64,000 bases of DNA from Posidoniimonas polymericola (lineage in GTDB: Bacteria; Planctomycetota; Planctomycetia; Pirellulales; Lacipirellulaceae), in NCBI RefSeq assembly GCF_007859935.1, contig NZ_SJPO01000003.1, positions 516,827 through 580,826 of the forward strand, given 5' to 3'. Shown here piece after piece: positions 27,946-34,285 of this stretch (its first letter is position 1; every line of letters starts with the position of its first letter). The position numbers and the translations under genes are program-made. The notes below the pieces were generated by a model that did not search any database, had not been told where the DNA came from, and saw nothing but the letters and a program-made list of their open reading frames with translations.

Positions 27946-28602
27946 GTGCCCATCGCCGACAACAACCCGTTTGCCGCCCCCCAGTCGGAAGACGCTCCGC
28001 GGCCCGACCCGCTCGTGGAGTTGCACGGGCGGATGCCGGGCAGCGTGAAGCTGGCGATCGGCTCGCTCATCGCGTTCTTAGGGCTGACACTGGCTGCGTT
28101 GTCGTTGCTGCTGGCGTTGGGCGGGGTGTCGTTCTATGAGCTGCTGCTGATGGCCGTGCTCGGCGGCGGGGTGGCGGTGCTGGTTGGTGTCTTCCGCCGC
28201 AACCGCTTCAGCAGGGTCTGCGCCCGGGCGATGGGGGTCGGGCTTGGCTCTCTGATAATGCTCTTAGTGGCGGTGAGCACGATCAGCCTTATCGGCTTCT
28301 ACTCCGACTCCGATTTCCAGTCGAGCATGCAGCAGGCGGGCGCGCCGTTCGGCGGTTGGGAGATGACGCTGTCGCTAGTACTTGGGATGTCGATCTACGT
28401 GATCCCCGCTGTATTGCTGCTAACGGTGTTCTTCACCCTCGGGACCACCACCGCCCGGCAGTACTTCTACCTGCTCTGCCCCGAGTGCCACGGCAAGCGG
28501 GTGACGGCCGTCAACCGGTCGGCGGATCATCTGCACTGCAGCGGCTGCGGCCACGAGTGGCGTCCGCCCCAGTCCACGCAGCCGAACGTCACTGCAAGGT
28601 GA
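27946..28602 (+). CDS. NPYxSP-motif membrane protein 1, with C-terminal zinc ribbon
   Basis: A 218-aa integral membrane protein, first of five tandem paralogues. It has an N-terminal NPFAAP motif (residues 6-11) and a cytoplasmic linker to MPGSVKLAIG, then four hydrophobic helices (about 33-60, 63-82, 95-115, 138-165). The final TTTARQYFYL is followed by a zinc ribbon (CPECHGKR ... CSGCGHEW) found only in this copy. No known enzyme domain. The start is GTG at 27946. The zinc ribbon suggests it is the ancestral or regulatory member; that is inference. Confidence 0.82.
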   Translation: MPIADNNPFAAPQSEDAPRPDPLVELHGRMPGSVKLAIGSLIAFLGLTLAALSLLLALGGVSFYELLLMAVLGGGVAVLVGVFRRNRFSRVCARAMGVGLGSLIMLLVAVSTISLIGFYSDSDFQSSMQQAGAPFGGWEMTLSLVLGMSIYVIPAVLLLTVFFTLGTTTARQYFYLLCPECHGKRVTAVNRSADHLHCSGCGHEWRPPQSTQPNVTAR

Positions 28603-28622
28603 GTCTTGGTAGGATGGGGCTT

Positions 28623-29177
28623 ATGAGCGATCCGCATGCAGAAGGTGGCAACCCCTACGCGTCACCAGGAGACTCAGAGCCCGTTGCCATGCCGCGCGGT
28701 GACATGCCCGGCAGTGTACAACTGTCGAGAGGATGCTTTACCGCCGTGGGCCTCTATTTCGGTCTCAACCTAATGGGCTGCCTGTTTTCTGGCGCCGACG
28801 CCGAGGAGTTGCTGCTATCCGCGGTCATTCCTCTTTCTGCGATCGCGATCATGCTTGTATGTGTGCGAGTGCGTACTCAACTAGCGCGGCGTGGTTGTCG
28901 ATTCATGGCGTTGACCTCTGCGGTGATGATGACGTTGGCTTTGATCGCAGTCATTGAGTTGATGTTCAGGCCACCAGCCGGCACGGTCGTGAGCAGCAGC
29001 ACCTCGTACTATGGGATTCCAATCTCCGAAAGCGTTCGTCCAGCATTCGAGCTGTTCATGGTCGGCTCGATTGCTGCGGTGGCGTTAGGTCTGTGGATCC
29101 CCGTCTTCGCGTTGGGCCGAAGGTCGGCACGGACTTATTTCTCTGGGCCGATCGCAAGCTTGGGCAATGACAACTGA
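28623..29177 (+). CDS. NPYxSP-motif membrane protein 2
   Basis: A 184-aa paralogue of the preceding gene. NPYASP at residues 10-15, then MPGSVQLSRG, four hydrophobic helices and a closing GRRSARTYF that aligns with the same place in the neighbours; there is no zinc ribbon. The ATG at 28623 has AGGATGGGG in front; an in-frame ATG at 28614 is possible. It begins 20 bp after gene 1 and overlaps gene 3 by 11 bp, so all are likely one transcript. Third-position GC is a little lower than in genes around it. Confidence 0.8.
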   Translation: MSDPHAEGGNPYASPGDSEPVAMPRGDMPGSVQLSRGCFTAVGLYFGLNLMGCLFSGADAEELLLSAVIPLSAIAIMLVCVRVRTQLARRGCRFMALTSAVMMTLALIAVIELMFRPPAGTVVSSSTSYYGIPISESVRPAFELFMVGSIAAVALGLWIPVFALGRRSARTYFSGPIASLGNDN

Positions 29178-29715
29178 AGCCGAGAATCCCTACGCGTCGC
29201 CCAAGGCGGGCGACGCCGCTCCGCCGTGTTGCCCGATGCCCAGCAGCGTCAAGCTCGCTATCGGTTGCCTGCTCCTGTTTGGGGCAGTCGTCGCCGCGAA
29301 CCTTTTGCGATGGCTCACCGAGTACGGCGATTCGGCCGCTTTTCTAGGGTTCCACCTCGTTCCGCTGCTGCTGATTGCCGGGGTAGTCGAGGGGATGCGT
29401 CGGCGGAATCCGGTCGCCGGCGCCGCGGCGTTTGGGTTCTCCGCGATAGTCGCGGCGATGTTCTCGGTGCTGGTAGCGGGCGCCGTGGCGATCTTCGTGG
29501 CCGAGCGGTGGTGGGGAATCGGGGTCCACGATACGGAGTTCAACGGTGTGCCCGTGCCGACGAACACGGCCCTGCCGTCCTACTGGGTCGCCACCGTGGT
29601 GCTGGCGGCGCTCGCCACGCTGCTGGGGACGGCTTGCGTTGGGCTGATGACCCGGTCGGCGCGGCGGTTCTTCCAGCACCAATTGCCAACCGACCAACCT
29701 GCCGACCCGGTTTGA
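29167..29715 (+). CDS. NPYxSP-motif membrane protein 3
   Basis: A 182-aa paralogue. NPYASP at residues 7-12, followed by MPSSVKLAIGCLLLFG, four hydrophobic helices (about 28-46, 60-73, 84-110, 139-162) and the closing TRSARRFFQHQ. Between helices 3 and 4 is a polar loop of about 30 residues that should face out. It overlaps gene 2 by 11 bp and is followed 12 bp later by gene 4. No catalytic motif. Confidence 0.82.
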   Translation: MTTEAENPYASPKAGDAAPPCCPMPSSVKLAIGCLLLFGAVVAANLLRWLTEYGDSAAFLGFHLVPLLLIAGVVEGMRRRNPVAGAAAFGFSAIVAAMFSVLVAGAVAIFVAERWWGIGVHDTEFNGVPVPTNTALPSYWVATVVLAALATLLGTACVGLMTRSARRFFQHQLPTDQPADPV

Positions 29716-29727
29716 TAGACTTGTGTA

Positions 29728-30303
29728 GTGATTACGCCAACGCCCAACCCGTACGTGTCGCCCGAGTCGACTGCCGAGCCCCAGGCTCCGGCGGAGCTGC
29801 TCGGCGCCCGCCCCGCGAGCGTCAAGCTAGCGATCAGCGGCGTGGCGTTGTTCACGCTGTTGGCCTTCTGTATCTGCGTGCAGTTCTGGCGGGAGGGCGC
29901 TCAGCTGTGGGAGATCGCGGTGTTGTCGGGCGTGCCGGCGTTGGCCGGTGCGCGCATTGCAAACGGGCTTTTCAAGAGGAACCGCTACGCGCGGCTGTGG
30001 GGACGCGTGCTCTCGTTCGCGGGCGCCGTGCTCATGACGTTGTGGGTGGTGGCGTTTGGCTACGCGATGTGGCGCCGCGGGGCATTCCTCAACACGACGC
30101 CACAGCCGTTCATGTTTGGGGCGTCGATCCCGGAGAACTTGCGGCTCGTGCTCATGGCGCTCCCCCTCGGGATTCAGGCGGCGTCCCTCTGGATTGCCTA
30201 CTTCGCCCTCGGCCGACGCGCGGCGGTGCGACATTTCGAGCCCGCTGCCCGGTGGGGCGAAGAAGAGCCGGCTAGTCGAATCGAGAGGAGCCCGATCTCG
30301 TGA
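29728..30303 (+). CDS. NPYxSP-motif membrane protein 4
   Basis: A 191-aa paralogue. NPYVSP at residues 7-12, then RPASVKLAISG, four helices and the closing GRRAAVRHF. The start is GTG at 29728, directly after a TAG-like leader; the SD is weak, consistent with translational coupling. Its TGA overlaps the start of gene 5 by 4 bp. Function unknown, as for the other members. Confidence 0.82.
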   Translation: MITPTPNPYVSPESTAEPQAPAELLGARPASVKLAISGVALFTLLAFCICVQFWREGAQLWEIAVLSGVPALAGARIANGLFKRNRYARLWGRVLSFAGAVLMTLWVVAFGYAMWRRGAFLNTTPQPFMFGASIPENLRLVLMALPLGIQAASLWIAYFALGRRAAVRHFEPAARWGEEEPASRIERSPIS

Positions 30304-30893
30304 TGCCGTCTGCACCAGACAACCCGTACGCTTCGCCTGGAGTGGCGGCCGAGCGCGTCAGGCCACCGCTTGGTGAGTACGGCGGCATGCCGGCAAGCGT
30401 GAAGGTGTCGGTCGCCTGCCTGGCGCTCTACTCACTGTTGTTCCTAGCGGTTCTGGTGTCGGATACGAGGCAGTTTGGAGTCACGAGCGTCGCCGCTCTC
30501 ATAACGGCATCGGTATTCGCCGGGGGTCCGCTGCCGCTGCTGGGGATCTGGCTACGCACCCCACGATCCCGTCTGCTGTCGCGGCTGGTGCTGCTGCTCT
30601 ACGCATCGCTGATGACCTTTGTTCTGGTGGTCGTTGGTCTCGGGGCCGCCTCGCCGGGTGGCGGCGTGGTCGCGTCTCCGGGTTTCGCATTCCTCGGTTA
30701 CAGTGTGCCGCCGTCGCAGGTTTGGCTGTGGACGATCGTGCACCTCACGACCCTTGCGGTCGCCGCCCTCTGTTTATGGGCGCCGCTGGTCGCCCTGGGC
30801 CGCCCCACGGCGGTTCGCTACTGCGGGCGAACACGCAGGCCGAGTGATGCACCGCTGCTCCCCGACCAATTGCCAGAACGCCGGGAAGACTGA
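30300..30893 (+). CDS. NPYxSP-motif membrane protein 5
   Basis: A 197-aa paralogue and last of the array. NPYASP at residues 8-13, MPASVKVSVACL, four hydrophobic helices, and GRPTAVRYC where the others have GRRxAxxxF. A longer polar C-terminus (about 25 residues) replaces the ribbon of gene 1. It starts with GTG at 30300 or ATG at 30303, overlapping gene 4. A repeated hairpin element follows at 30931-31030. Confidence 0.8.
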   Translation: MMPSAPDNPYASPGVAAERVRPPLGEYGGMPASVKVSVACLALYSLLFLAVLVSDTRQFGVTSVAALITASVFAGGPLPLLGIWLRTPRSRLLSRLVLLLYASLMTFVLVVVGLGAASPGGGVVASPGFAFLGYSVPPSQVWLWTIVHLTTLAVAALCLWAPLVALGRPTAVRYCGRTRRPSDAPLLPDQLPERRED

Positions 30894-30930: not shown

Positions 30931-31030
30931 CTAGCCGGCGAGCTACGCCTCGCCGGGGACCCCGGTGTTGATTCTCACTCGACAGGAAGGACTTCCCCTG
31001 GACTCCCGCCGAGGCGTAGCTCGCCGGCTA
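30931..31030. repeat. Paired inverted copies of a REP-like hairpin
   Basis: CCGGCGAG and CTCGCCGG around loop CTACGC (30935-30956) form a perfect 8-bp hairpin. About 60 bp on, a 22-nt reverse-complement copy lies at 31008-31029. The two copies frame a 100-bp element between the array and the HD gene. A third copy lies at 58914-58939. Confidence 0.7.
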
Positions 31031-31102
31031 CTTTCTGAGACTGGCTCCGTGCGAAAACGGCTCCCCCTTCCGCCGTTTGCCTTCCCCCTTCAGAATACCC
31101 GG

Positions 31103-32512
31103 ATGAAGGACTTTAACCGCGAGAGCCTGCTGCACTGCCCCGTGCACGGCTACATCCCGTTTACGTCGAAGGTGCCCGAGGGCGAGGTCTCGGAGCGGCA
31201 GCTGCTGGACAGCCCGTGGCTGCAGCGGCTGCGGCAGATCCACCAGCTCCAGACCGCCTGGTGGGTCTACCCGTCGGCTGAGCACACGCGGTTCCAGCAT
31301 GTGGTAGGCGCCATGCACATGGCGAGCCGCGCGGTCGACGGCCTCTACCCCAGCCTGCGCGAGGTCTGCAAGGGCGACGTGCCCAGCCGCGGCTACGTCG
31401 AGTGCCTGGCCCGGATGGCCGCGCTGCTGCACGACGTGGGGCACGGGCCGTTCGGGCACTTCTTCGACGCGCACTTCCTGAAGCCGCACTTCGGCCTCAA
31501 CCACGAGACCCTCGGCGCCCACATCATCGAGCACGAACTGGGTGACCTGCTCCGCGGCGTCCGCCAGTGCCCCAACACGCGGATCGTGGAGAGCGCGACG
31601 CTCGACCCGCGGCAGGTCTGCACGCTGATCACGCGGCCCAAGTCGCACGACGCCGACCAGCACCCGCGTTGGCTGATCCTGCTGAGGAGCCTGTTCTGCG
31701 GCCTTTACACCGTGGACAACATGGACTTTGTGCTCCGCGACGCGTACATGTCGGGCTACAGCCCGCGGGCGTACGACCTCGACCGGCTGCTGCGGTACAG
31801 CTTCTTCAGCGAACGCGGTCTGACGATCCACCAGAAGGGGATCAACGCGCTGTTGAAGTTCATGCAGACCAAGAGCGAGCTGTTCCGCGCGGTCTACTTC
31901 CACCGCACCGTGCGGGCGATCGACAAGACGCTCGAGGGCCTGTTCCGCGACAGCCGCGAGCTGTTGTTCCCGGGCAACCCGCTTGAGCACCTCAACGACT
32001 ACCGTGGCTTCACCGAGTGGTCGCTGCTGATTGACGTGTCGCGGTGGAGCAGGTCCGATGACGATCGCACCCGCGAACTGGGCGAGCGGTGGGACCGCCT
32101 GCTGGAGCGGCAGGTCGACTGGATCTGCGTCGAGGACCGCAACCAGACCATCCGTGAGGGCGAGAGCGAGCAGACGAGCATCTTCGCCGACGAGACCGTG
32201 CTCGAGCAAGTGCTCCGCAGCACGCTGCCGCTCGGGGTTCAGGACGTGCCGATGCAGATCGACCTGCCGCGGCACATCTACCGGCCCGACGCGCTGGCCG
32301 CGACCGCGGGCCAGAACTTCCAGTTCAACCCCGCGACCGGCAAGGTGTACCCGCTGACCGACGACCAGCTGTTCCGACAGTTGCCGCTGGCGCACCGCGC
32401 GTGTCGGATCTACCTCAAGAAGGACCACACGCCCGAACAGGCGAGCGCCGTCGGCGCGGCGCTCGACGCGATTGTCGGCAGCCGCGGCGAGGACGATCTG
32501 ACGAATATGTGA
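31103..32512 (+). CDS. HD-domain phosphohydrolase, SAMHD1/dGTPase-like
   Basis: A 469-aa cytoplasmic metal-dependent phosphohydrolase. The HD metal ligands are visible: His in HTRFQHVVGAMHMA, His-Asp in ALLHDVGHGPFGH, and the distal Asp in NMDFVLRDAYMSG. The overall layout (LLDSPWLQRLRQIHQL near residue 35, then an extended C-terminal domain) matches the SAMHD1-like branch, which hydrolyses dNTPs or related nucleotides; substrate is unproven. ATG at 31103; the frame also opens at 30965 inside repeat DNA and is rejected. Not coupled to the preceding array. Confidence 0.9.
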   Translation: MKDFNRESLLHCPVHGYIPFTSKVPEGEVSERQLLDSPWLQRLRQIHQLQTAWWVYPSAEHTRFQHVVGAMHMASRAVDGLYPSLREVCKGDVPSRGYVECLARMAALLHDVGHGPFGHFFDAHFLKPHFGLNHETLGAHIIEHELGDLLRGVRQCPNTRIVESATLDPRQVCTLITRPKSHDADQHPRWLILLRSLFCGLYTVDNMDFVLRDAYMSGYSPRAYDLDRLLRYSFFSERGLTIHQKGINALLKFMQTKSELFRAVYFHRTVRAIDKTLEGLFRDSRELLFPGNPLEHLNDYRGFTEWSLLIDVSRWSRSDDDRTRELGERWDRLLERQVDWICVEDRNQTIREGESEQTSIFADETVLEQVLRSTLPLGVQDVPMQIDLPRHIYRPDALAATAGQNFQFNPATGKVYPLTDDQLFRQLPLAHRACRIYLKKDHTPEQASAVGAALDAIVGSRGEDDLTNM

Positions 32513-32860: not shown

Positions 32861-34285
32861 ATGTCCGAGTACTACGAGAACCCCCTGATCACCCGTTACG
32901 CCTCGCGGCAGATGGCCGCCCTGTGGGGGGCGCAGAAGAAGTTCAGCACCTGGCGGCGGCTGTGGGTCGCGCTCGCGGAGGCCGAGGCCGAGCTCGGCCT
33001 GCCGATCAGCGAGGCTCAGCTCAACGAGCTGCGCGAGAACGTCGACAAGATCGACTTCGACAACGCCGCGGCTTACGAGAAGAAGCTGCGGCACGACGTC
33101 ATGGCCCACGTGCACGCCTACGGCGACCAGTGCCCCGGCGCCAAGGCGATCATCCACCTCGGCGCGACCAGCAACTTTGTGGTCGACAACACCGACCTGA
33201 TCCTGCTGCGGGAGTCGCTCGAGCTGGTCCGCGACCGTATTGTCGCCGTGATCCAGGCGCTGGACAACTTCGCCCGCGAGCACCGCGCGCTGCCGACCCT
33301 CGGCTTCACCCACATGCAGCCGGCCCAGCCGACCACGGTCGGCAAGCGGGCCACCCTGTGGTGCTACGACCTCGTGCTCGACCTGCAGGAGGTCGAGCAC
33401 CGCATCGCGGTGCTGTGCGCCCGCAGCACCAAGGGCACGACCGGCACCCAGGCGAGCTTCCTCGAGTTGTTCGACGGCGACCACACCAAGGTCCGTGAGC
33501 TGGAAACCCTGGTCGCGCAGAAGATGGGCTTCCAACGCACCTACGCGGTAACCGGCCAGACCTACCCGCGGGGCGTCGACACGCACGTGCTGAGCACCCT
33601 CGGCGGCGTGGCGGCGAGCTGCCACAAGGCGGCGACCGACATCCGGCTGCTCGCCAACCGCAAGGAGCTCGAGGAGCCGTTCGAGAAGAACCAGATCGGC
33701 AGCTCGGCCATGGCGTACAAGCGGAACCCGATGCGGAGCGAGCGGATCTGCGGCCTGGCCCGGTTCGTGATGAGCCTCACCGCCAACGGCGCCGACACGC
33801 ACGCCACCCAGTGGATGGAGCGGACGCTCGACGACTCGGCCAACCGGCGGCTGTCGCTGCCGCAGGCGCTGCTGGGCGTCGACGCGGTGCTGTCGATCTA
33901 CCACAACGTGGCGAGCGGGCTGGTGGTGTACCCGAAGGTGATCGAGCGGAACCTGGCGGCCGAGCTGCCGTTCATGGCGACCGAGAACCTGCTGATGGAG
34001 GCGGTCCGCGCCGGCGGCGATCGGCAGGACCTGCACGAGGTGATCCGCACGCACAGCCAGGAGGCGGCCGCGGTGGTCAAGCAGCAAGGTGGCGACAACG
34101 ACCTGCTCGACCGGCTGCGCAACGACCCGGCCTTCGCCGGCGTCGACATCGACGCCGCCGTAGACGCCGCCGGCCTGGTCGGCCGGGCGCCGGAGCAGGT
34201 CGACGAGTTCCTCAACGAGGTGGTCGAGCCGATCCTGGTCCGGCTTGGTGAGCAGTCCGCCGGCGGCGACGAGCTGCGGGTGTAG
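32861..34285 (+). CDS. purB: Adenylosuccinate lyase
   Basis: A 474-aa fumarase/aspartase-superfamily enzyme acting twice in purine synthesis: SAICAR to AICAR plus fumarate, and adenylosuccinate to AMP plus fumarate. The superfamily signature [16 protein letters not shown], carrying the mobile catalytic Ser loop, is near residue 285. [13 protein letters not shown] and the catalytic-His region [18 protein letters not shown] are intact. Length is as expected for this PurB subgroup. ATG at 32861 lacks a clear SD. Isolated from other pur genes, with no riboswitch upstream. Confidence 0.95.

Follow-up and report, generated by a model that had tools for sequence, protein, structure and literature searches.

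A tandem array of five small membrane proteins in Posidoniimonas polymericola carries an NPYxSP-type motif that recurs on many other membrane proteins

The window analysed here is a 64,000-nucleotide stretch of the genome of Posidoniimonas polymericola (Planctomycetota, order Pirellulales, family Lacipirellulaceae; assembly GCF_007859935.1, contig NZ_SJPO01000003.1, positions 516,827 to 580,826 of the forward strand). At its positions 27946-30893 lie five consecutive, coupled genes encoding small membrane proteins, each of which begins with a short motif of the form NP[YF]xxP, hereafter the tag:

27946..28602, + strand: array gene 1 (GTG start, 218 amino acids, NPFAAP tail, C-terminal zinc ribbon)
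27964..27981, + strand: NPFAAP motif of array gene 1
28477..28563, + strand: zinc ribbon CPECHG...CSGCGHEW of array gene 1, its four Cys read directly
28623..29177, + strand: array gene 2 (ATG start, 184 amino acids, NPYASP tail, multi-pass membrane protein); the ATG at 28623 is our choice, the mechanically called open reading frame (ORF) extending further upstream
28650..28667, + strand: NPYASP motif of array gene 2
29167..29715, + strand: array gene 3 (ATG start, 182 amino acids, NPYASP tail)
29185..29202, + strand: NPYASP motif of array gene 3
29728..30303, + strand: array gene 4 (GTG start, 191 amino acids, NPYVSP tail)
29746..29763, + strand: NPYVSP motif of array gene 4
30300..30893, + strand: array gene 5 (GTG start, 197 amino acids, NPYASP tail)
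30321..30338, + strand: NPYASP motif of array gene 5

A first-pass annotation, made from the letters of the sequence, had described these five ORFs, their exact spacing (gaps of 20 and 12 bp, overlaps of 11 and 4 bp) and their NPFAAP, NPYASP, NPYASP, NPYVSP and NPYASP starts, and we found all of them as described. In an alignment of the five proteins, N-P-x-x-x-P is invariant, and so is the PxSV that the annotation had placed near the first helix (5/5). The closing motif GRRxAxxxF turned out to be looser than claimed: the segments read, from gene 1 to gene 5, GTTTARQYF, GRRSARTYF, TRSARRFF, GRRAAVRHF and GRPTAVRYC. Within the array the zinc ribbon is indeed confined to gene 1, where Pfam zinc-ribbon models match residues ~178-206 weakly, all under their cut-offs.

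Array genes 2-5 are 22-28% identical to array gene 1, and the proposal that the five are paralogues withstood the objection that they might resemble each other by chance hydrophobicity. BLASTP among the proteins with the motif and the next residues cut off gave a best E of 6e-11, and 8 of the 10 pairs score above all 200 of 200 window-wise shuffles that preserve local hydrophobicity; in the two weaker pairs the observed score was reached by 2/200 (genes 3 and 4) and 7/200 (genes 3 and 5) shuffles. None of the five proteins reaches the curated cut-offs of Pfam or NCBIfam, and none has a Pfam match to RDD (PF06271). The four hydrophobic helices that had been noted are supported by AlphaFold2 models of array genes 1 and 3, built from an eight-sequence alignment (mean predicted local distance difference test, pLDDT, 75.9 and 82.8; predicted template modelling score, pTM, 0.65 and 0.72, respectively). 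The modelled fold is a four-helix bundle, with helices at 26-53, 57-78, 82-116 and 132-160 and a hairpin at 123-130 between helices 3 and 4 in the gene 3 model, on which the GRRxARxxF segment forms a short closing helix. The motif tail is disordered in both models (pLDDT ~55 at the gene 3 motif, 48-57 in the gene 1 tail). Intramolecular docking of the gene 1 tail onto its own zinc ribbon was considered and set aside, as AlphaFold2 leaves this tail undocked and at low confidence. Foldseek returned no match to the array model at E 0.001 or better. The best rows from VIA-align 2, the high-affinity IgE receptor beta chain and the sigma-2 receptor, reach Z 9.0 at best, which is within the chance range for helical bundles; the likeness to tetraspan bundles is that of a four-helix membrane bundle, with a similarity no better than that of generic helical bundles.

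The tag is far from being a peculiarity of the array. The P. polymericola genome has 53 sites that match a DNA pattern for NP[YF]x(S/T)P and 7 that match the mirrored control; for the NPY form of the pattern the figures are 44 and 2. Translation of all 53 sites gave NPYxSP at 38 and NPFxSP at 7. Of the 38 NPYxSP sites, 29 have the first possible start no more than 25 residues away, and 27 of the 38 are followed by a hydrophobic segment in the next 80 residues. As a comparison set we used the NP dipeptides of 660 called genes in an 800 kb sample chosen regardless of the motif: 38 of 428 are close to the first start, 8 of these with a hydrophobic segment. A looser test, any start codon within 25 codons, was uninformative, being passed by 36/38 tag sites and 316/428 NP dipeptides. 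In the 800 kb sample (217,902 residues) NPYxSP itself appears just twice, both times at the beginning of a membrane protein. The 45 tag sites are clustered: 12 adjacent pairs are 1 kb or less apart, where random placement gives 0.32 on average. Tag sites are also encoded in many synonymous ways (10 codings among 13 NPYASP sites and 9 among 10 NPYQSP sites) and, because codon use is this diverse, the tag is not a copied DNA repeat.

The carriers are diverse. From the P. polymericola genome, its relatives and named records we assembled 163 tagged proteins with a hydrophobic segment (164 rows retained from 223 N-terminal candidates on a named motif class, at least one hydrophobic segment and at least 55 residues, the locus L249 having been counted twice). 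Once the motif is removed, these fall into ~103 BLAST groups, an upper bound since BLAST on short hydrophobic proteins overstates independence. A hydrophobic segment is present in 159 of 189 NPYxSP candidates against 1 of 9 for NP[YF]xTP, so that the latter form is mostly chance. A Pfam scan of 90 carriers found RDD (PF06271, four carriers), DUF4328, YcxB, DUF975, DUF4234, CPBP/Rce1-like and other families, with one to four members each, while the majority had no Pfam match. Around the motif the flanking consensus runs from an acidic residue through NPY, A/Q/E/R, S and P to Q/L/A/R, S/A/T and E/D, its Ser and Pro frequencies being biased because the sets were collected by motif search; overall the tag may be written [DE]NP[YF]x[S/A/T/P]P, in a disordered tail, with a median of 20 residues to the first helix. 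Basic residues are more numerous before than after this helix in 113 proteins, fewer in 25 and equal in 21, a positive-inside bias that predicts a cytosolic tail. In two membrane proteins, L024 (NPYRSPQY) and L066, the tag is C-terminal, and in a third, L053, it lies more than 100 residues from the N-terminus, in the linker that joins an N-terminal zinc ribbon to an RDD domain. Positions of this kind are typical of short linear motifs and not of start-site or insertion signals.

Several further features of the carriers deserve mention in their own right. L249 (G048:C181), from a BPSS1780/DUF975-like group, bears two successive tags, NPYAAP and NPYSSP. Clusters of NPYESP-tagged small membrane proteins occur at L043 (G000:C4:461198-465136) and, in the sister genome, at L270 (G001:C2:226013-228500), and their proteins fall into three or more groups that do not match one another by BLAST at 1e-4. 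Both clusters run into a gene whose N-terminus and CPYDCGLC motif resemble those of radical SAM enzymes akin to tetraether lipid synthase. By eye, a second recurring start of approximate form RF(S/T)(I/L)xxLLxxxAxxA is seen in small membrane proteins next to tagged genes (neighbours of L043, L137, L244 and L291).

Conservation was also assessed in homologues found without the motif. Two alignments of tagged families (A4 and A5), with the tag cut off, were searched against 117 genomes of the order. NP[YF]xxP follows shortly after the start in 12 of the 21 A5 loci and in 12 of the 17 A4 loci, counts that include the A4 seeds L352 and L353 and the loci L337 and L355, which had been met through the motif. 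Scored as lacking the tag were, among others, L344, L346, L351 (SPFRSP instead) and L361 (NPYEPS); L346 and L351 share one best frame. Among the A5 loci the tag is common in stronger matches and rare in weak ones. Homologues have S, A, P or T at position 5 of the tag and Y or F at position 3, with the replacement forms NPYEAP, NPYAAP, NPYRAP, NPYAPP and NPYQPP; in two A5 relatives, L347 and L349, an N-terminal zinc ribbon occupies the place of the tag.

Over the same 117 genomes, NPYx(S/T..)P is found at 969 sites against 543 for the control, and about ten genomes hold most of the excess (e.g. 44/2, 35/5, 50/2 and 47/4). A stricter pattern gave 41/0 in G048, 31/2 in G001, 24/3 in G227 and 16/2 in G021, and 30 against 5 in the genome of the Blastopirellula sp. 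NORP48 record. Among 147 genomes of the phylum outside the order, the maximum was 13, with controls equal or higher in places, and 143 gammaproteobacterial genomes showed no strong excess of NPYx(S/A/T/P)P (highest count, 11). In named genomes, 46 stretches match MxxNPYxSP, of which 24 begin a protein with a hydrophobic segment, 19 in planctomycetes and 5 in gammaproteobacteria. The remark in the first-pass annotation that other planctomycete membrane proteins start with NPYxSP is borne out by these 19 named proteins together with the census above. Among the sets searched, strong genome-wide enrichment is restricted to some lineages of the order.

The array itself is specific to its lineage. 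A sixth copy of its protein family lies elsewhere in the genome (C9:127213-127731, NPYVSP). Searching 43 genomes of the taxonomic family gave matches in three: P. polymericola itself (six); G001, the sole other genome of the genus (two clear matches and one weak); and G011, whose one match contains an in-frame TGA inside the matched stretch and in its readable frame carries NPYESP. A weak match in G024 from an earlier search did not recur among the 43. All nine members of the protein family that turned up carry the tag (six in P. polymericola, two in G001 and one in G011); a loss of the motif in orthologues, which would have told against the first-pass annotation, was not observed. Two neighbouring genes anchor the comparison with the sister genome:

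25413..27578, + strand: serine/threonine protein kinase, upstream neighbour, 367 bp before array gene 1; 84% identical in the sister genome, syntenic
30965..32512, + strand: HD-domain protein, downstream neighbour; 89% identical in the sister genome, syntenic; its true start is probably a later ATG (MKDFNRES)

The sister genome presents, in order, the kinase, two array genes, the HD protein and a gene 92% identical to the window ORF at 32861, which, like its counterpart, is presumably an adenylosuccinate lyase. The gene beyond the kinase is merely 52% identical between the two genomes. The kinase has an N-terminal zinc-ribbon-like segment (a weak LysW-type match). The sister counterpart of array gene 1 is 28% identical, with NPFAAP and a zinc ribbon of its own (L065/L271), and that of array gene 3 is 47% identical, with NPYASP. 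Two sister genes thus correspond to five here, at the same gene position within a conserved backbone. The five genes arose by tandem expansion, in this lineage, of a small inner-membrane protein with four helices, and they diverge fast at a conserved gene position while NP[YF]x[SA]P is retained; the suggestion of serial duplication, with the motif kept as the remainder diverges, is therefore upheld.

What could the tag be for? We hold it somewhat probable that it is a short linear docking signal, exposed to the cytosol, through which many small membrane proteins bind a shared partner, because: (i), it is kept in the disordered tails of many unrelated membrane proteins and (ii), N, P, the aromatic residue and the final P are strict while the variable positions are tolerant. 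A cytosolic or membrane-peripheral partner would bind the motif and would thereby bring many fast-evolving small membrane proteins together at a common machine or site; candidate roles are scaffolding, sorting in the invaginated membrane and controlled turnover. The array would supply five variants of one client and would be one of several tandem client sets, in which duplication may diversify the membrane part and leave the address fixed. The first-pass annotation had read a shared role into the motif and either a multi-subunit or a diversifying system into the duplications. The motif belongs, however, to a large set of unrelated membrane proteins and is not peculiar to the array; of the roles that the annotation had named, docking or sorting is still the best candidate. 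Since so many unrelated membrane proteins carry it, the motif gives no evidence for one five-subunit machine, and the number and divergence of the array genes suggest that the membrane part is being diversified, not that five subunits form a fixed complex.

Several observations weigh against a shared partner. Neither GYF_2 copy number nor operon neighbours pointed to a reader of the tag, and 67 same-strand neighbours of tagged genes, read by eye, have no common theme. The tag is absent from 9/21 A5 and 5/17 A4 homologues, some of them distant, broken or frame-shifted, so that some lineages can do without it, and in many genomes of the order its count shows no excess. The ~103 groups may overstate the independence of the carriers, and the frequency of Ser and Pro in the consensus owes something to the way in which the sets were collected.

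The leading alternative, which we nevertheless consider rather unlikely, is that the tag is an intramolecular or biogenesis element, which would govern how the first helix inserts, how it is oriented or how stable it is, with no separate partner. Its usual place close to the N-terminus and to the first helix would fit such a role, but the tag also occurs after the last helix (L024, L066) and deep within L053, makes no packing contact with the membrane domain in the two AlphaFold2 models, and is missing from some orthologous proteins. It is less likely again that the tag is inherited baggage with no present function, derived from one diverged ancestor or from an N-terminal stretch shuffled among genes. 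Duplication clearly spreads it inside families, and carriers often stand in tandem clusters (the 12 adjacent pairs above); yet the carriers span distinct Pfam families, the codings are diverse, and genomes from different families of the order share the tag despite linkers that differ in length and sequence.

Also decidedly unlikely, in our view, is a pairing within the membrane in which the tag binds to GYF_2 domains, or to zinc ribbons like the one on array gene 1, on other small membrane proteins. Eukaryotic GYF domains bind proline-rich aromatic motifs; GYF_2 is found in 111 of the 117 genomes, and none of 28 GYF_2-locus proteins picked by regular expression (at least L096 and L105 look false) carries the tag itself. 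A zinc ribbon stands in the tag's place in L347 and L349. On the other side, tag excess and GYF_2 copy number are uncorrelated (rho 0.12, p 0.21, 117 genomes), a result that also tells against a shared partner; GYF_2 is equally common in genomes without excess; and the gene 1 model leaves its own tail (pLDDT 48-57) undocked. As the obvious reader, GYF_2 is not supported, being near-universal in the order and uncorrelated with the tag, a weak test given that one receptor could serve any number of tags. Finally, phosphorylation was among the roles named in the first-pass annotation, and a Hanks-type kinase such as the one upstream of the array could be imagined to act on the SP or Tyr of the motif, the kinase beside the array being conserved in the sister genome. 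This is very improbable, because many homologues have Ala, Pro or Thr at position 5 (as does array gene 1, with Ala) and Tyr is often Phe, and the kinase is just one among many neighbours of tagged genes.

A docking signal would have precedents of a general kind. Eukaryotic NPxY and NPF are cytosolic sorting motifs in membrane protein tails and, like NPYxSP, are short Asn-Pro-aromatic motifs; the residue order differs (NPYxSP, not NPxY), and NPF forms account for 7 of the 45 NP[YF]xSP sites. In bacteria, PEP-CTERM and similar signals (Haft et al. 2006, PMC1569441) are genome-wide protein sorting tags and share with NPYxSP a short motif on many unrelated proteins per genome whose number varies widely between genomes; the PEP-CTERM signal sits at the C-terminus, includes a helix and is paired with a cognate processing enzyme. 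NPYxSP is mostly N-terminal and predicted to be cytosolic, and we found no matched enzyme for it; nearly all census sites are N-terminal, unlike the PEP-CTERM arrangement of a C-terminal PEP motif, helix and basic end. Planctomycetes also have an N-terminal cell-surface signal, PF07595, and a YTV motif (Studholme et al. 2004, as cited in PMC8567305), which are likewise short recurrent protein motifs, the former N-terminal like NPYxSP; the consensus reported for PF07595, RRLxxExLExRxLLA, serves the export of large surface proteins. NPYxSP has no sequence relation to it and marks small inner-membrane proteins. The open-licence literature that we searched by motif spelling and topic describes the tag nowhere; an earlier mention elsewhere is possible.

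It is tempting, if doubtful, to go one step further and regard NPYxSP as a bacterial cytosolic address label, kept or independently acquired, by which one dedicated receptor gathers its carriers in the planctomycete inner membrane. The logic would be that of the eukaryotic NPxY/NPF sorting tails, without common descent. Bacterial genome-wide tags have usually led to a whole machine, as with sortases and exosortases. Such a label would account for the array, with its fixed address and diversifying membrane part. If one reader exists, its identification would assign a role all at once to dozens of hitherto uncharacterised small membrane proteins in each genome, in bacteria with an unusual membrane organisation.

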